Under the pieces are notes generated by a model, which was not told the origin of the DNA, did not search any database, and was given only the letters and a program-made list of their open reading frames with translations. The position numbers and the translations under genes were made by a program. From NCBI RefSeq assembly GCF_000743535.1, contig NZ_AVCJ01000001.1:62001-126000 (forward strand): a DNA stretch of 64,000 nt, read 5' to 3'. Below are positions 18,521 to 63,918 of the stretch, piece after piece. Numbering within the stretch: the first letter of the stretch is position 1; each line of letters starts with the position of its first letter. This DNA comes from Arenimonas donghaensis DSM 18148 = HO3-R19 (GTDB lineage: Bacteria; Pseudomonadota; Gammaproteobacteria; Xanthomonadales; Xanthomonadaceae).

Positions 18521-18578
18521 CCCTGTGGGAGGGACTTCAGTCCCGAAGCCTTTCGGGACTGAAGTCCCTCCCACAGGG
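18521..18578. repeat. REP pair, variant A (GGGAC stem)
   Basis: This is a near-perfect inverted repeat: TGTGGGAGGGACTTCAGTCC on the left, its complement on the right and GCCT in the centre. It lies between the convergent hutH and diguanylate cyclase genes and could also end transcription. It is one of the REP family copies in this window. Confidence 0.9.
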
Positions 18579-33307: not shown

Positions 33308-33362
33308 CTGTGGGAGGGACTTTAGTCCCGAAGGCTTTTCGGGACTGAACTCCCTCCCACAA
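33308..33362. repeat. REP pair, variant A, diverged arms
   Basis: Two inverted variant A units (TGTGGGAGGGACTTTAGTCC on the left) lie around GGCT. The left loop is TTTA instead of TTCA and the right arm carries one stem change, so this copy is older than 18521-18578. It lies between rmuC and the symporter gene. Confidence 0.85.
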
Positions 33363-35000: not shown

Positions 35001-35058
35001 CTGTGGGAGGGACTTCAGTCCCGAAAGAACGGCCCGCGAAAGCGGGCCGTTCGTTTTT
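35001..35058 (+). repeat. REP half-site fused to a terminator (left copy)
   Basis: A single variant A unit (35001-35025) runs straight into a terminator: GAACGGCCCGC (35027-35037), GAAA, GCGGGCCGTTC (35042-35052), GTTTTT. It ends the symporter message. An inverted relative of the whole composite lies at 35454-35506, so the two bracket the small gene between them. Confidence 0.85.
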
Positions 35059-35453: not shown

Positions 35454-35506
35454 AAAAGCGGCCCGCTTTCGCGGGCCGCTTTTCGGGACTGAAGTCCCTC
35501 CCACAG
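35454..35506 (-). repeat. REP half-site fused to a terminator (right, inverted copy)
   Basis: AAAAGCGGCCCGC (35454-35466) and GCGGGCCGCTTTT (35471-35483) form a 13-bp stem with a TTTC loop, joined to one variant A REP unit at 35483-35506. On the minus strand it is the mirror of 35001-35058. It can terminate from either side. Confidence 0.85.
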
Positions 35507-43150: not shown

Positions 43151-43201
43151 GCGGTCTCCCCAAGAACCGAACCCCGAGAATACACTGCGTCATTCGGTGT
43201 T

Positions 43202-43254
43202 TGTGGGAGGGACTTCAGTCCCGAATCGCTTCGGGACTGAAGTCCCTCCCACAG
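43202..43254. repeat. REP pair, variant A
   Basis: TGTGGGAGGGACTTCAGTCC and its inverted copy meet around CGAATCGCTTCG. It lies between the start of the PAS-GGDEF-EAL gene and the stop of the HMG-CoA lyase gene, both on the minus strand, so it is transcribed only from the right. Confidence 0.9.
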
Positions 43255-49494: not shown

Positions 49495-49574
49495 CTGTAG
49501 GAGCGCCTTCAGGCGCGAATCTTTTGACTTTGCTTTGGCAAAGCAAAGCTTCGCGCCTGAAGGCGCTCCTACAG
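49495..49574. repeat. REP pair, variant B, at the 3' end of the RAYT gene
   Basis: Inverted GTAGGAGCGCCTTCAGGCGC units flank the spacer TTTTGACTTTGCTTTGGCAA. The right unit supplies the RAYT stop codon TAG (49569-49571, minus strand). It also follows the feo operon. Confidence 0.92.
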
Positions 49575-50057
49575 GAGGGATGTGTCGGTGAGCCAGGCGG
49601 CGTCCCAGAAGGGGTAGTTGCCTGCGCGATCCGCCAGCCCGGCGCGCAATGGGTTTCCCACGAGGTAGCGGGCTACGGCGCGCAGGCATTCATCGTTCCT
49701 GATGGCCCGGTCATGGAAGCCTCGGGACCATAGGGCACCTGTGCGGCCTGTCATGAGGTTGAAGCTTGAAGCGGTTGCGCCCTTTGCCTGTCCAACAACC
49801 TTGGACAACTCGCCGGAACATTCAAGCACCAACAGGCCATGCCAATGGTCGGGCATCAGCACCCAGGCCATAAGCCGGGCCTTCGGCCAAGTCGAGGGTT
49901 CGCTGACCAGGCGGGACATGGCGGCACCTGGCTCCCAATCCCTGAAAACCCGCTCGCGCCGATGCGTGGTGAAGGTCAGGAAGTAGGCTTGCCCACTCAA
50001 GGAGCGACGGCCTTTGCGGAGCGACGCCTGGCCCGGTGTATTCAGGAGGAATGGCAT
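49569..50057 (-). CDS. REP-associated tyrosine transposase (RAYT)
   Basis: This 162-residue HUH single-strand nuclease belongs to the family that handles REP hairpins. Its active site shows His71 and His73 in WVLMPDHWHGLLVL and the catalytic Tyr131 in ARYLVGNPLRAGL. The N-terminal SLRKGRRSLSGQAYFLTFTT is a common RAYT start; ATG 50057 was therefore preferred to ATG 50093, which adds 12 unrelated residues. It is flanked on both sides by variant B REP pairs whose GTAG tetranucleotide is the known RAYT recognition feature. It interrupts the leucine genes and is the probable source of at least variant B. Confidence 0.93.
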   Translation of the reverse strand: MPFLLNTPGQASLRKGRRSLSGQAYFLTFTTHRRERVFRDWEPGAAMSRLVSEPSTWPKARLMAWVLMPDHWHGLLVLECSGELSKVVGQAKGATASSFNLMTGRTGALWSRGFHDRAIRNDECLRAVARYLVGNPLRAGLADRAGNYPFWDAAWLTDTSLL

Positions 50058-50114
50058 GCCACCAGCATGCAGCGCCACCTGCCAGGAGCCCATCGGAGCC
50101 CATCCACATTTTTT

Positions 50115-56962: not shown

Positions 56963-56971
56963 GCAGTTCTC

Positions 56972-57050
56972 TGTGGGAGGGACTTCAGTCCCGAATCTTT
57001 TGATTTTCGGCCTTTGGCAAAAAAGCTTCGCGCCTGAAGGCGCTCCTACA
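56972..57050. repeat. Chimeric REP pair (variant A left, variant B right)
   Basis: The left unit is TGTGGGAGGGACTTCAGTCC; the right unit is the complement of GTAGGAGCGCCTTCAGGCGC. The spacer keeps a TTTTGATTTTCGGCCTTTGG version of the conserved one. It lies 31 bp before the next gene. Confidence 0.88.
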
Positions 57051-60075: not shown

Positions 60076-60174
60076 GCCCGGGCGCGCCGGGGCGGCGCGG
60101 GGCGGGGGTTAGGGCGGACCATACGGTCGGCGCTACAATCGGGCGTATCCGTCTTTCGTTTGCGAGACCGCCCC

Positions 60175-63100
60175 ATGAGCACGCCCGCCAACCAGCTTCC
60201 CGACCGCGATCCCGAGCGCAGCCCGCTGCGTTTCGTCACCGCCGCCAGCCTGTTCGACGGCCACGACGCCGCGATCAACATCATGCGCCGGCTGATCCAG
60301 GCGCAAGGCGTGGAAGTGGTGCACCTGGGCCACAACCGCAGCGTCGAGGACGTGGTGCGGGCCGCCCTGCAGGAAGACGCCGACGGCATCGCGCTGTCGA
60401 GCTACCAGGGCGGCCACACCGAATACTTCAAGTACATGGTCGACATGCTGCGCGAGCGCGGCGCCGGCCACATCCGCGTGTTCGGCGGCGGCGGCGGCAC
60501 GATCACGCCCGAAGAAATCAGGGAGCTGCAGGACTACGGGGTCGAGCGCATCTACCACCCCAACGACGGCATGCAGATGGGCCTGGTGGCGATGATCGAA
60601 GACCTGGTGCGCCGGACCCGGGAAGCCAAGGACAAGCGGGCCAAGGGTGAGCCGGCCGACGGCAAGGGCAAGTCCGCCAAGGCCAGGAAGGACAACGGCA
60701 TCAGCCCGCGCGTGGACATCGACGACGAAATCGCCGTCGGCAAGATGCTCACCGCGCTGGAACAGGAAGCCATCGACGAATCCCAGCTGGCCTCGATGCG
60801 CAAGGAATGGCAGCTCGCCGGCGGCAAAACCCCGGTGGTCGGCCTGACCGGCACCGGCGGCGCCGGCAAGTCCAGCGTCACCGACGAGCTGATGAACCGG
60901 TTCCTGCAGCACTTCCCGGAGATGCGCATCGCGGTGATCTCGGTCGACCCGACCCGCCGCCGCACCGGTGGCGCGCTGCTGGGCGACCGCATCCGCATGA
61001 ACTCCCTGCGCAGCCCGCGCGTCTTCATGCGCTCCATGGCCACCCGCCGCCAGCACGTGGCCACCAATGCCGTGCTCAAGGACTGCGTGGCCTTCCTGCG
61101 CGCCCAAGGCTACGACCTGGTGATGGTGGAAACCGCCGGCATCGGCCAGTCCGACTCCGAGATCGTCGACCTGGTCGACTTCCCGGTGTACGTGATGACC
61201 AGCGACTTCGGCGCGCCCAGCCAGCTCGAGAAGATCGACATGCTCGACTTCGCCGAGCTGGTGGTGCTCAACAAGTTCGACAAGCGCGGCGCCGAAGACG
61301 CCCTGCGCGACGTGCGCAAGCAGTGGAAGCGCAACCGCGTCGCCTTCCAGATGAAGGACGAGGACGTGCCGGTCTACCCGACCATCGCGAGCCAGTTCAA
61401 CGACCCCGGCGTCACCTGGATGTTCGCCAACCTCTGCCGCCTCTTGAGGGAAAAGCTCGGGACTAAAGTCCCTCCCACAAAGGACGGCGACTCCCCTGTG
61501 GGAGGGACTTCAGTCCCGATAGGCTCCAGCCGCTGCGACTTCGCCCCCGAAGCCGACGTAGACGAAAAATCCCCACGCGCCACCGTCCTGATCCCCGGCA
61601 ACCGCACCCGCTACCTGGCCGAGATCGCCGAGCAGGGCCGCCAGGTCAACGCCAGCATCGAAAAGCAGGCCGAAGCCGCCGAGCGCGCCCAGCACTACTA
61701 CGAATCCCTGCGCGAACTGGGCGACCCGGACCTGCCCAAGCCGCTGGAACTGTTCGACCCGCACCACCTGGTGGTGCCCCAGCCGGGCAGCAGCGGCGCC
61801 CAGAAGGACGCCGCGCAGTGGCCCGACTGCGGCGAACGCCGCCAGGGCCTGCCGGACCGCCGCAAGATGGTGTTCCAGTGGGAGCGCCGCCAGGGCGCCG
61901 CCAGCGGCGACAACCCGAACGCGCCGCAGGTCAGCGTCGACCGCAGCCTGGTCACCCTGCGCCAGCGCTACAACGACGCGGTGAAGGCGCTGAGCGCCAA
62001 TTCGATCAACCTGCTGCGCGAATGGCCCGAGCGCCTGAAGTCGATCACCGAAGAGGTGACCGAATACACCGTGCGCGGCAAGGTCATCCGGGTCGAGAAC
62101 TACCGCGAGTCCCTGAGCCACCAGAAGATCCCGAAGATCGCCGGCCCGCAGTGGAAGAGCTGGGGCGAACTGCTGGTCTTCCTGGGCAAGGAAAACCTGC
62201 CCGGCCATTACCCCTACACCGGCGGCGTGTATCCGTATCGCCGCACCGGCGAAGACCCCATCCGCATGTTCGCGGGCGAGGGCACGCCCGAGCGCACCAA
62301 CCGCCGCTTCCATTACCTGAGCAAGGGCCAGCCGGCCGCGCGCCTTTCCACCGCTTTCGACTCGGTCACGCTGTACGGCGAAGACCCGGCCGAGCGCCCG
62401 GACATCTACGGCAAGATCGGCAACTCCGGCGTCTCCATCGCCACCCTGGACGACATGAAGAAGCTGTACTCGGGCTTCGACCTGTGCGCGCCGACCACCA
62501 GCGTGTCGATGACCATCAACGGCCCGGCGCCGATGATCCTGGCGATGTTCATGAACACCGCCATCGACCAGCAGGTCGAGAAGTACCTGCGCGAAGACCA
62601 GAAGCGCTGGGACGACGCCCACGCCAAGATCGAGAAGTTCTTCGAAGGCAAGAAGCGCCCCGAATACAGCGGCGAAGTGCCCGAGGGCAACGAAGGCCTG
62701 GGCCTGGGCCTGCTGGGCGTCACCGGCGACCAGCTGGTGGACGCGGAAACCTACGAGCGCATCAAGACCCAGACCCTGGCCACCGTGCGCGGCACCGTGC
62801 AGGCCGACATCCTGAAGGAAGACCAGGCGCAGAACACCTGCATCTTCAGCACCGAATTCGCCCTGCGCATGATGGGCGACATCCAGCAGTACTTCGTGGA
62901 CAACAAGGTCCGCAATTTCTACTCGGTGTCCATCAGCGGTTACCACATTGCCGAAGCCGGGGCGAACCCGATTTCGCAGCTGGCCTTCACGCTGAGCAAC
63001 GGTTTCACCATCGTCGAGTACTACCTGGCGCGCGGCATGCACATCGACGACTTCGCGCCCAACCTGAGCTTCTTCTTCAGCAACGGCATGGACCCGGAGT

Positions 63101-63918
63101 ACACCGTGATCGGCCGCGTCGCCCGCCGCATCTGGGCAAGGGCAATGCGCGAACGCTACGGCGCCAACGAGCGCAGCCAGATGCTGAAGTACCACATCCA
63201 GACTTCCGGCCGCAGCCTGCACGCCCAGGAAATCCAGTTCAACGACATCCGCACGACCCTGCAGGCCCTGTACGCGCTGTTCGACAACTGCAACAGCCTG
63301 CACACCAACGCCTACGACGAAGCCATCACCACGCCCACTGAAGAAAGCGTGCGCCGGGCCGTGGCCATCCAGATGATCATCAACAAGGAGCTGGGGCTGA
63401 ACTTCAACGAAAACCCCTGGCAGGGCAGCTTCGCCGTGGAGCAGCTGACCGACCTGGTGGAAGAGGCCGTCTACAAGGAGTTCGAAGCCCTAAGCGAGCG
63501 CGGCGGCGTACTGGGCGCCATGGACACCATGTACCAGCGCGGCAAGATCCAGGAAGAAAGCCTGTACTACGAGCACAAGAAACACGACGGCAGCCTGCCC
63601 CTGGTCGGCGTCAATACCTTCCTGCCCAAGGACCACGCCGGCGAGGTAATGACCGAGATCGAACTGATCCGCTCGACCCCGGAAGAGAAGGGCGCCCAGA
63701 TCGCCAATGTCCGGACCTTCCAGGCCGCGAGAAATTCTCTCAGTGCCCCCGCCACGGCGTCTTCCGGCGCGAAAAACCCCCTAAGCTACCTCCAGACCAC
63801 CGCCCGTGACCGAAAGAACATCTTCGCCGCGTTGATGGAAGCGGTGAAGACCCACAGCCTCGGACAGATCAGCCATGCGCTCTATGAGGTGGGTGGGGAG
63901 TATCGGCGGAATATGTAG
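60175..63918 (+). CDS. icmF: Fused isobutyryl-CoA mutase (IcmF)
   Basis: This 1247-residue fusion interconverts isobutyryl-CoA and n-butyryl-CoA with adenosylcobalamin; IcmF enzymes also act on isovaleryl/pivalyl-CoA. The order is a B12 domain (about 20-150, axial His30 in [12 protein letters not shown]), a MeaI-type G-protein chaperone (about 200-425, Walker [13 protein letters not shown] at 223-234, LNKFDKRG), and the mutase TIM barrel (about 590-1100). A REP pair is inserted in frame between G domain and mutase (residues about 428-449). ATG 60175 was preferred over an upstream TTG. It connects valine and leucine breakdown, matching the nearby leucine genes. Confidence 0.9.
61457..61519. 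repeat. REP pair, variant A, inside the icmF coding sequence
   Basis: TCGGGACTAAAGTCCCTCCC (61457-61476) and TGTGGGAGGGACTTCAGTCC (61497-61516) form an inverted pair around 20 bases. The 63-bp block is exactly 21 codons, has no stop, and is translated as LGTKVPPT...VGGTSVPIG in the linker of IcmF. The left loop is TTTA, as in 33308-33362. Confidence 0.9.

Follow-up and report, generated by a model that had tools for sequence, protein, structure and literature searches.

Background

The better known case of palindromic DNA read in frame within protein genes is that of the RPEs of Rickettsia. These palindromic repeats lie in frame in protein genes and encode a conserved peptide (PMC10969869, PMC2229807), and in this they resemble the repeat pair described here in icmF, a gene for a multidomain B12 enzyme. 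RPEs, however, are about 105-150 bp long and belong to another lineage, whereas the icmF element, at 63 nt, falls short of that length and is a pair of REP palindromes whose family flanks a REP-associated tyrosine transposase (RAYT). REPINs and BIMEs with their RAYTs share with the icmF element the inverted REP pair, the hundreds of copies and the transposase flanked by its own REP; they are mostly extragenic, whereas the icmF pair is coding and has the rare -+ order of its two REPs (2 of 62 sampled clusters).

In-frame intragenic REPs of the GTAG/CGTC kind, often present as dimers, have been published by Di Nocera et al. 2013 (PMC3733652), whose text suggests that they are neutral and lie in flexible linkers or loops. 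The genes named there include tRNA synthetases in X. oryzae and others, as well as recB of X. campestris and X. oryzae, in which different REPs are found at about the same site. The likeness to icmF lies in REPs, often dimeric, that are in frame within genes; compared with the main text of that report, the icmF case involves many species, several repeat families, three linkers of one enzyme, a common frame and an internal control. The word 'mutase' is absent from that main text, and among the papers listed, our literature search yielded no title or abstract reporting REPs in icmF, while the supplement of intragenic REPs in PMC3733652 may list the gene. What seems to be new is the repeated colonisation of the linkers of one enzyme by several repeat families in a fixed frame.

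The locus is a case, with counts, of palindromic and mobile-looking DNA that has remodelled the hinges of a single multidomain enzyme again and again while the frame stays open, and it adds evidence that 'extragenic' repeats can turn into coding sequence outside Rickettsia. The places where such repeats land and the frames in which they survive map out naturally which insertion sites are tolerated, and the neutrality of linker length in a B12 enzyme chaperoned by a G protein becomes testable.

Results and discussion

The icmF gene and its insert

The window, that is the whole stretch of 64,000 nucleotides analysed here, contains an open reading frame on the forward strand at 60175..63918, with ATG at 60175 and a stop codon ending at 63918 (a TTG at 60160 is the first start in the list of open reading frames). 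Its product carries, in a single chain, the domains that define IcmF, with Pfam matches to B12-binding (residues 19-122), to the MeaB-type G domain (190-385) and to MM_CoA_mutase (best stretch 866-1240). It also has relatives in the PDB (4xc6 and others), of which the best bears the name isobutyryl-CoA mutase fused. Judged from sequence, the gene is icmF, for a putative fused isobutyryl-CoA mutase.

Within this frame, positions 61457..61519 (+) hold a REP pair, recognized from its inverted repeat and from the empty site in close relatives. The first REP (61457..61480) lies on the reverse strand with 2 mismatches to the 24-nt core, the second (61496..61519) lies on the forward strand and matches the core exactly, and a spacer (61481..61495, +) separates them. 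Extended to their full length, the arms (61457-61484 and 61492-61519) comprise 28 nt each, are 89% complementary and leave 7 nt between them. The 63 nt add 21 stop-free codons and begin at codon position 2. Residue 427 of the encoded protein, directly ahead of the insert, aligns with residue 438 of Cupriavidus IcmF. Residues 22-442 and 443-1093 of that enzyme were fitted as two fragments in the cryo-EM work described in PMC10481361, so the insert is placed where the G domain gives way to the linker leading to the mutase. A structure prediction (mean pLDDT 53.1 from 9 sequences) was too poor for use. By eye, the codons flanking the insert (TTG AGG GAA AAG and GTA GAC GAA AAA TCC, within 61420-61590) are atypical for the high-GC icmF.

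When the flanks were joined by script without the insert, a normal linker was obtained (LREKLGSSRCDF), resembling the insert-free linker of the congener G013. The initial annotation had described a 63-bp REP pair translated in icmF at a domain junction, and the DNA bears this out: it is REP DNA, in frame and free of stops. The annotation had further predicted that close relatives would lack the insert, and indeed the nearest relatives read, G021 (91% identical) and G018 (90%), have no pair at this site; both carry a different palindromic pair in icmF linker 1, between the B12-binding and G domains, where the window has none. The same insert in distant IcmFs, the annotation's own counter-case, was found in 0 of 20 readable linkers among 32 mostly distant named loci (L136-L167) that were tried. 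The reading of the insert as a single event was dropped once relatives turned out to hold other pairs at this very point. That the enzyme tolerates the insert, as the annotation supposed, is suggested by this recurrence together with the open frames.

The REP family and the RAYTs of this genome

Allowing up to 3 mismatches, the window has 11 copies of the 24-nt REP core, against a maximum of 0 over 100 shuffles; allowing up to 2, the genome has 103 + 102 = 205 copies of a 22-nt core, against 0 + 0 for the core read backwards. Apart from icmF, members of the family in the window include three pairs at 18523..18576, 33308..33362 and 43201..43254, all of which failed the open-frame test (the last had shown equal best frames on both sides in a first pass), and three single REPs recognized by core match at 35001..35024 (+), 35483..35506 (-) and 56971..56994 (+).

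Three Y1_Tnp matches were found in the genome. One of them, at C8:16823-17089, belongs to a RAYT with the motif HWHG that is flanked by two icmF-family REPs at one end and five at the other, as is typical of a REP with its cognate transposase. A second RAYT lies in the window on the reverse strand (49569..50093; open reading frame with a Y1_Tnp match at C1:111662-111988) and has pairs of another REP, GTAGGAGCGCCTTCAGGCGCGA, to either side. This second family has the GTAG head, and the icmF family reads GTGG instead; we therefore class the latter as a REP with a GTGG head. Substrates with GTGG are still cleaved in vitro according to PMC8266576. Like other REPs, the icmF family is a short imperfect palindrome within the usual 20-40 nt and of high copy number.

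For its arrangement, clusters were sampled from 40 stretches around REPs among the 100 places listed of the 205, which together with the window gave 62 clusters with 112 copies. Simple inverted pairs made up 45 of the 62 clusters, 43 in +- and 2 in -+ order. Counting as in-frame a REP that lies within an open frame and has coding signal to either side, 55 of the 62 clusters lacked this combination and 7 had it, namely icmF, L226, L231, L233, L241, L246 and L253. The repeats are thus mostly extragenic, and the 'almost always intergenic' of the initial annotation is strong for this genome.

Going by Pfam, we take L226 to be a molybdopterin oxidoreductase, L231 MetG, L233 DsbD, L241 a mannose-1-phosphate guanylyltransferase and L246 LpdA; a Pfam search with the protein of L253 gave 0 matches. 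Besides icmF, three of the in-frame REPs lie at Pfam domain junctions: that of MetG precedes tRNA_bind, that of DsbD separates DsbD_N from DsbD_TM, and that of LpdA lies between the lipoyl and FAD domains. Those of L226 and L241 lie inside one Pfam match and are not interdomain, which counts against a linker model. It was also seen, post hoc, that the two clusters in -+ order, icmF and L253, are both coding (chance about 0.011).

Recurrence at linker 2 in the family

A query spanning linker 2 of icmF, the linker that holds the window's insert, had a match in 285 of 395 family genomes; the 110 genomes with no match indicate that icmF is not universal in the family. Sixty genomes with split or partial matches were read, which with the loci read earlier gave 115 loci, 110 of them with a readable linker 2 and 5 unreadable. 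We labelled linkers as A for GTAGGAGCGGCTTCAGCCGCGA-like repeats, as B for GGGGTCAGAGT... and as none for a linker of fewer than 50 residues. The 110 comprised 52 none, 21 A, 24 B, 12 long linkers without a strong inverted repeat and 1 other. The labels were left as set, although A includes L076, which has a CCCTCTCCC-type palindrome, and L117, which has a single A-type REP from which its scored inverted repeat differs; the linker labelled other (L097) holds a decayed A-type pair. The 46 of 110 with an A, B or other label do not give a prevalence, because the set read is enriched for long linkers; within this same enriched set, inverted-repeat scores reached 13 or more in 43 of the 110 loci, and the 52 short linkers had 30-49 residues and scores of at most 9.

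Leaving out L117 (G361; single REP) and G057, which is outside the family, an in-frame palindromic pair of one of three repeat types is present in linker 2 of at least 44 of the 285 family genomes, a lower bound because genomes with a single match were read only in part. The positions of the pairs differ by only a few codons, following LREK or the corresponding residues, and pairs occur at the same point also in genomes assembled as one contig, such as G114, G131 and G135. A quick tree was built from the flanks, with a long-branch warning for L132 and L021. On it, 16 changes are required for label A and 15 for label B, of which at least 8 and at least 9, respectively, are imposed by strongly supported branches. 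In one instance, an insert is present in G026, and G023, its supported neighbour in the tree, has none at the linker 2 site. The arms of the B-type pairs vary between species yet remain paired.

In the congener G022, contigs C78 and C141 (L050, L051) break exactly at the insertion point in the icmF linker. One contig ends there and the other starts in a G/C homopolymer beside CCTACAG, as if a repeat were present.

Other linkers of icmF and other genes

Inverted repeats with a score of at least 13 were also found in linker 1 (41 of 112 loci) and in linker 3 (23 of 111), where the GTAGGAGCGACGTCAGTCGCGA pair of Pseudoxanthomonas sacheonensis DSM 19373 (L142) is an example. The internal control consisted of 195-nt windows from conserved parts of the G domain and the mutase of the same loci, of which 0 of 2040 reached a score of 13. 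The inverted repeats of linkers 1 and 3 are not all REPs; by eye, the 41 of linker 1 consist of 20 B-like pairs, 19 inverted short-tandem arrays, 1 A-type pair and 1 of another kind. In linker 1 of L098, L100, L104, L127, L133 and others, GGGACTC-like short tandem arrays face their reverse complement, both in frame. Linker 3 of L089, L097, L113 and L114 contains a further palindromic repeat with a peptide of roughly PAKAGxHGRS...MDxRLRGxD.

Of 60 genomes whose MetG linkers were read, 6 carried a strong inverted pair there, so that the effect is not confined to icmF and the idea of a hot spot in icmF only is weakened. The 60 were drawn from the 95 genomes that had a match. Handles were followed in order for the first 40, passing over a few partial matches; the last 20 depart from this order and include split matches (G105, G106, G110) and genomes chosen as carriers of icmF inserts (G105, G114, G115, G129, G131, G135). 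Because the sample was thus partly chosen, the rates for icmF and MetG are not exactly comparable. Among 20 LpdA regions, 16 of them picked for a split match, 15 were readable and 3 exceeded the threshold, two with CCTCTCCC-type palindromes and one not REP-like. The MetG linkers of L282, L289, L299, L309 and L316 have KLAAEAAPT or VGAASAA peptides without a full pair and look like decayed REPs.

Reading frame of the repeats

Forward 8-mers of the A type fall in one phase in all 22 cases in icmF linker 2 (20 loci), in all 6 in MetG (6 linkers) and in 6 of 7 in other genes of this genome, the seventh being by eye a chance 8-mer. Linker 1, in which a single A-type pair was observed, has 2 of 7 in phase, and the five others are by eye chance matches outside the inverted pair. 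Forward B-type copies keep one phase in 26 of 26 cases in linker 2 and 21 of 21 in linker 1. For the reverse 8-mers of the A type the agreement is 22 of 24 in linker 2, 14 of 15 in MetG, 3 of 5 in other genes here and 1 of 2 in linker 1. The reverse arm takes a second frame in two genes of this genome, which counts against a fixed frame. Common ancestry within icmF reduces the number of independent frame cases; it does not explain the frame agreement across different genes.

With a GTAG head, one alternative forward frame is blocked by a stop and another is open, and in the GTGG REP of this genome and in the B type all three forward frames are open. The frames in use give peptides of small residues (VGAASAA, AAEAAPT) or the least bulky option (GQSHFS, KSDSDP). 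Hydropathy was considered as the rule of frame choice and found not to be a simple one, as the forward frame used by the A type has the highest Kyte-Doolittle hydrophobicity of its three frames, yet is free of Arg.

Origin of the inserts

We consider it highly probable that the 63 nt in icmF are an opposed REP pair of a family probably spread by a RAYT, whose insertion is broad and of which selection keeps the survivors that lie in flexible linkers in a harmless frame. Directly observed are the family to which the repeat belongs, its open frame, the lack of a pair at this site in relatives, the recurrence at the same place and the common frame of the forward arms. The C8 RAYT would have moved the pair into icmF, insertions would occur broadly over the genome, and selection would purge those that break frames or folds. 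What survives would then be found in flexible linkers, in a frame yielding a small-residue or hydrophilic peptide, and the predicted IcmF, its flexible hinge longer by 21 residues, should still work.

A wider proposal is that this bacterial family continually draws new interdomain linkers from palindromic mobile repeats, that several repeat families have kept one harmless-peptide frame and live inside genes, and that IcmF, MetG, LpdA and DsbD gain, swap or lose hinges through the turnover of such elements. We offer this tentatively, as possible but on balance doubtful.

If, instead, the transposases prefer a DNA site, the linker would be a target hot spot and not a tolerant spot. The close spacing of the linker 2 pairs after LREK or its equivalent and the break of the G022 assembly at the same point agree with such targeting, which we nevertheless regard as unlikely, given that different repeat families occupy one place and that two further icmF linkers and the MetG linkers are also hit. 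Moreover, this enzyme class cleaves in vitro at dinucleotides such as CA, CT or CC (PMC8266576), and sites of this kind are too short to single out one linker.

Inserts might also be favoured beyond mere tolerance, longer hinges aiding the movement of the G domain in cofactor loading. Repeated change at the hinges of one enzyme, and a site at the boundary between the separately fitted fragments of the cryo-EM work (PMC10481361), would fit an adaptive extension of this kind. It is improbable all the same, as 52 of the 110 linkers read have only 30-49 residues, from a set in which long ones are over-represented, and as MetG, LpdA and DsbD, which are mechanically different, carry inserts too.

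A role at the RNA level seems quite improbable; here a hairpin in the icmF transcript would delay ribosomes or influence mRNA decay, giving the G domain time to fold ahead of mutase synthesis. The segment 61430-61545 does fold at -59.1 kcal/mol (z -5.05) and B-type arms diverge between species while keeping their pairing, but a strong hairpin would be expected from any recent REP pair, the repeat families differ, the 52 short linkers score no higher than 9, and such a role would not predict a common peptide frame. An artefact of assembly or annotation is scarcely credible: the assembly has 51 contigs, but the site lies inside one of 595,688 bases with flanks that continue in frame, and many other genomes, some of a single contig (G114, G131, G135), hold different pairs at the same site.

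Repeat content of the host genomes

Insertion and repeat load are loosely linked, without strict pairing. B-type repeats number only 0-3 copies in 11 of 24 hosts, so that some inserts may be old or inherited and the count of independent events correspondingly lower; the two copies of G283 are those in icmF. The A pattern has 306 copies in the genome of the window, 423 in G012 and 575 in G172; of the 20 inserted hosts tested, 17 have between 22 and 575 copies. Among hosts with no insert at linker 2, the congener G013 has 0 copies and G272 has 2, while G021 and G018 have 52 and 57. The inserted G030, G256 and G222 hold 0, 2 and 3 copies, and the arms of G030 and G256 do not fit the pattern.
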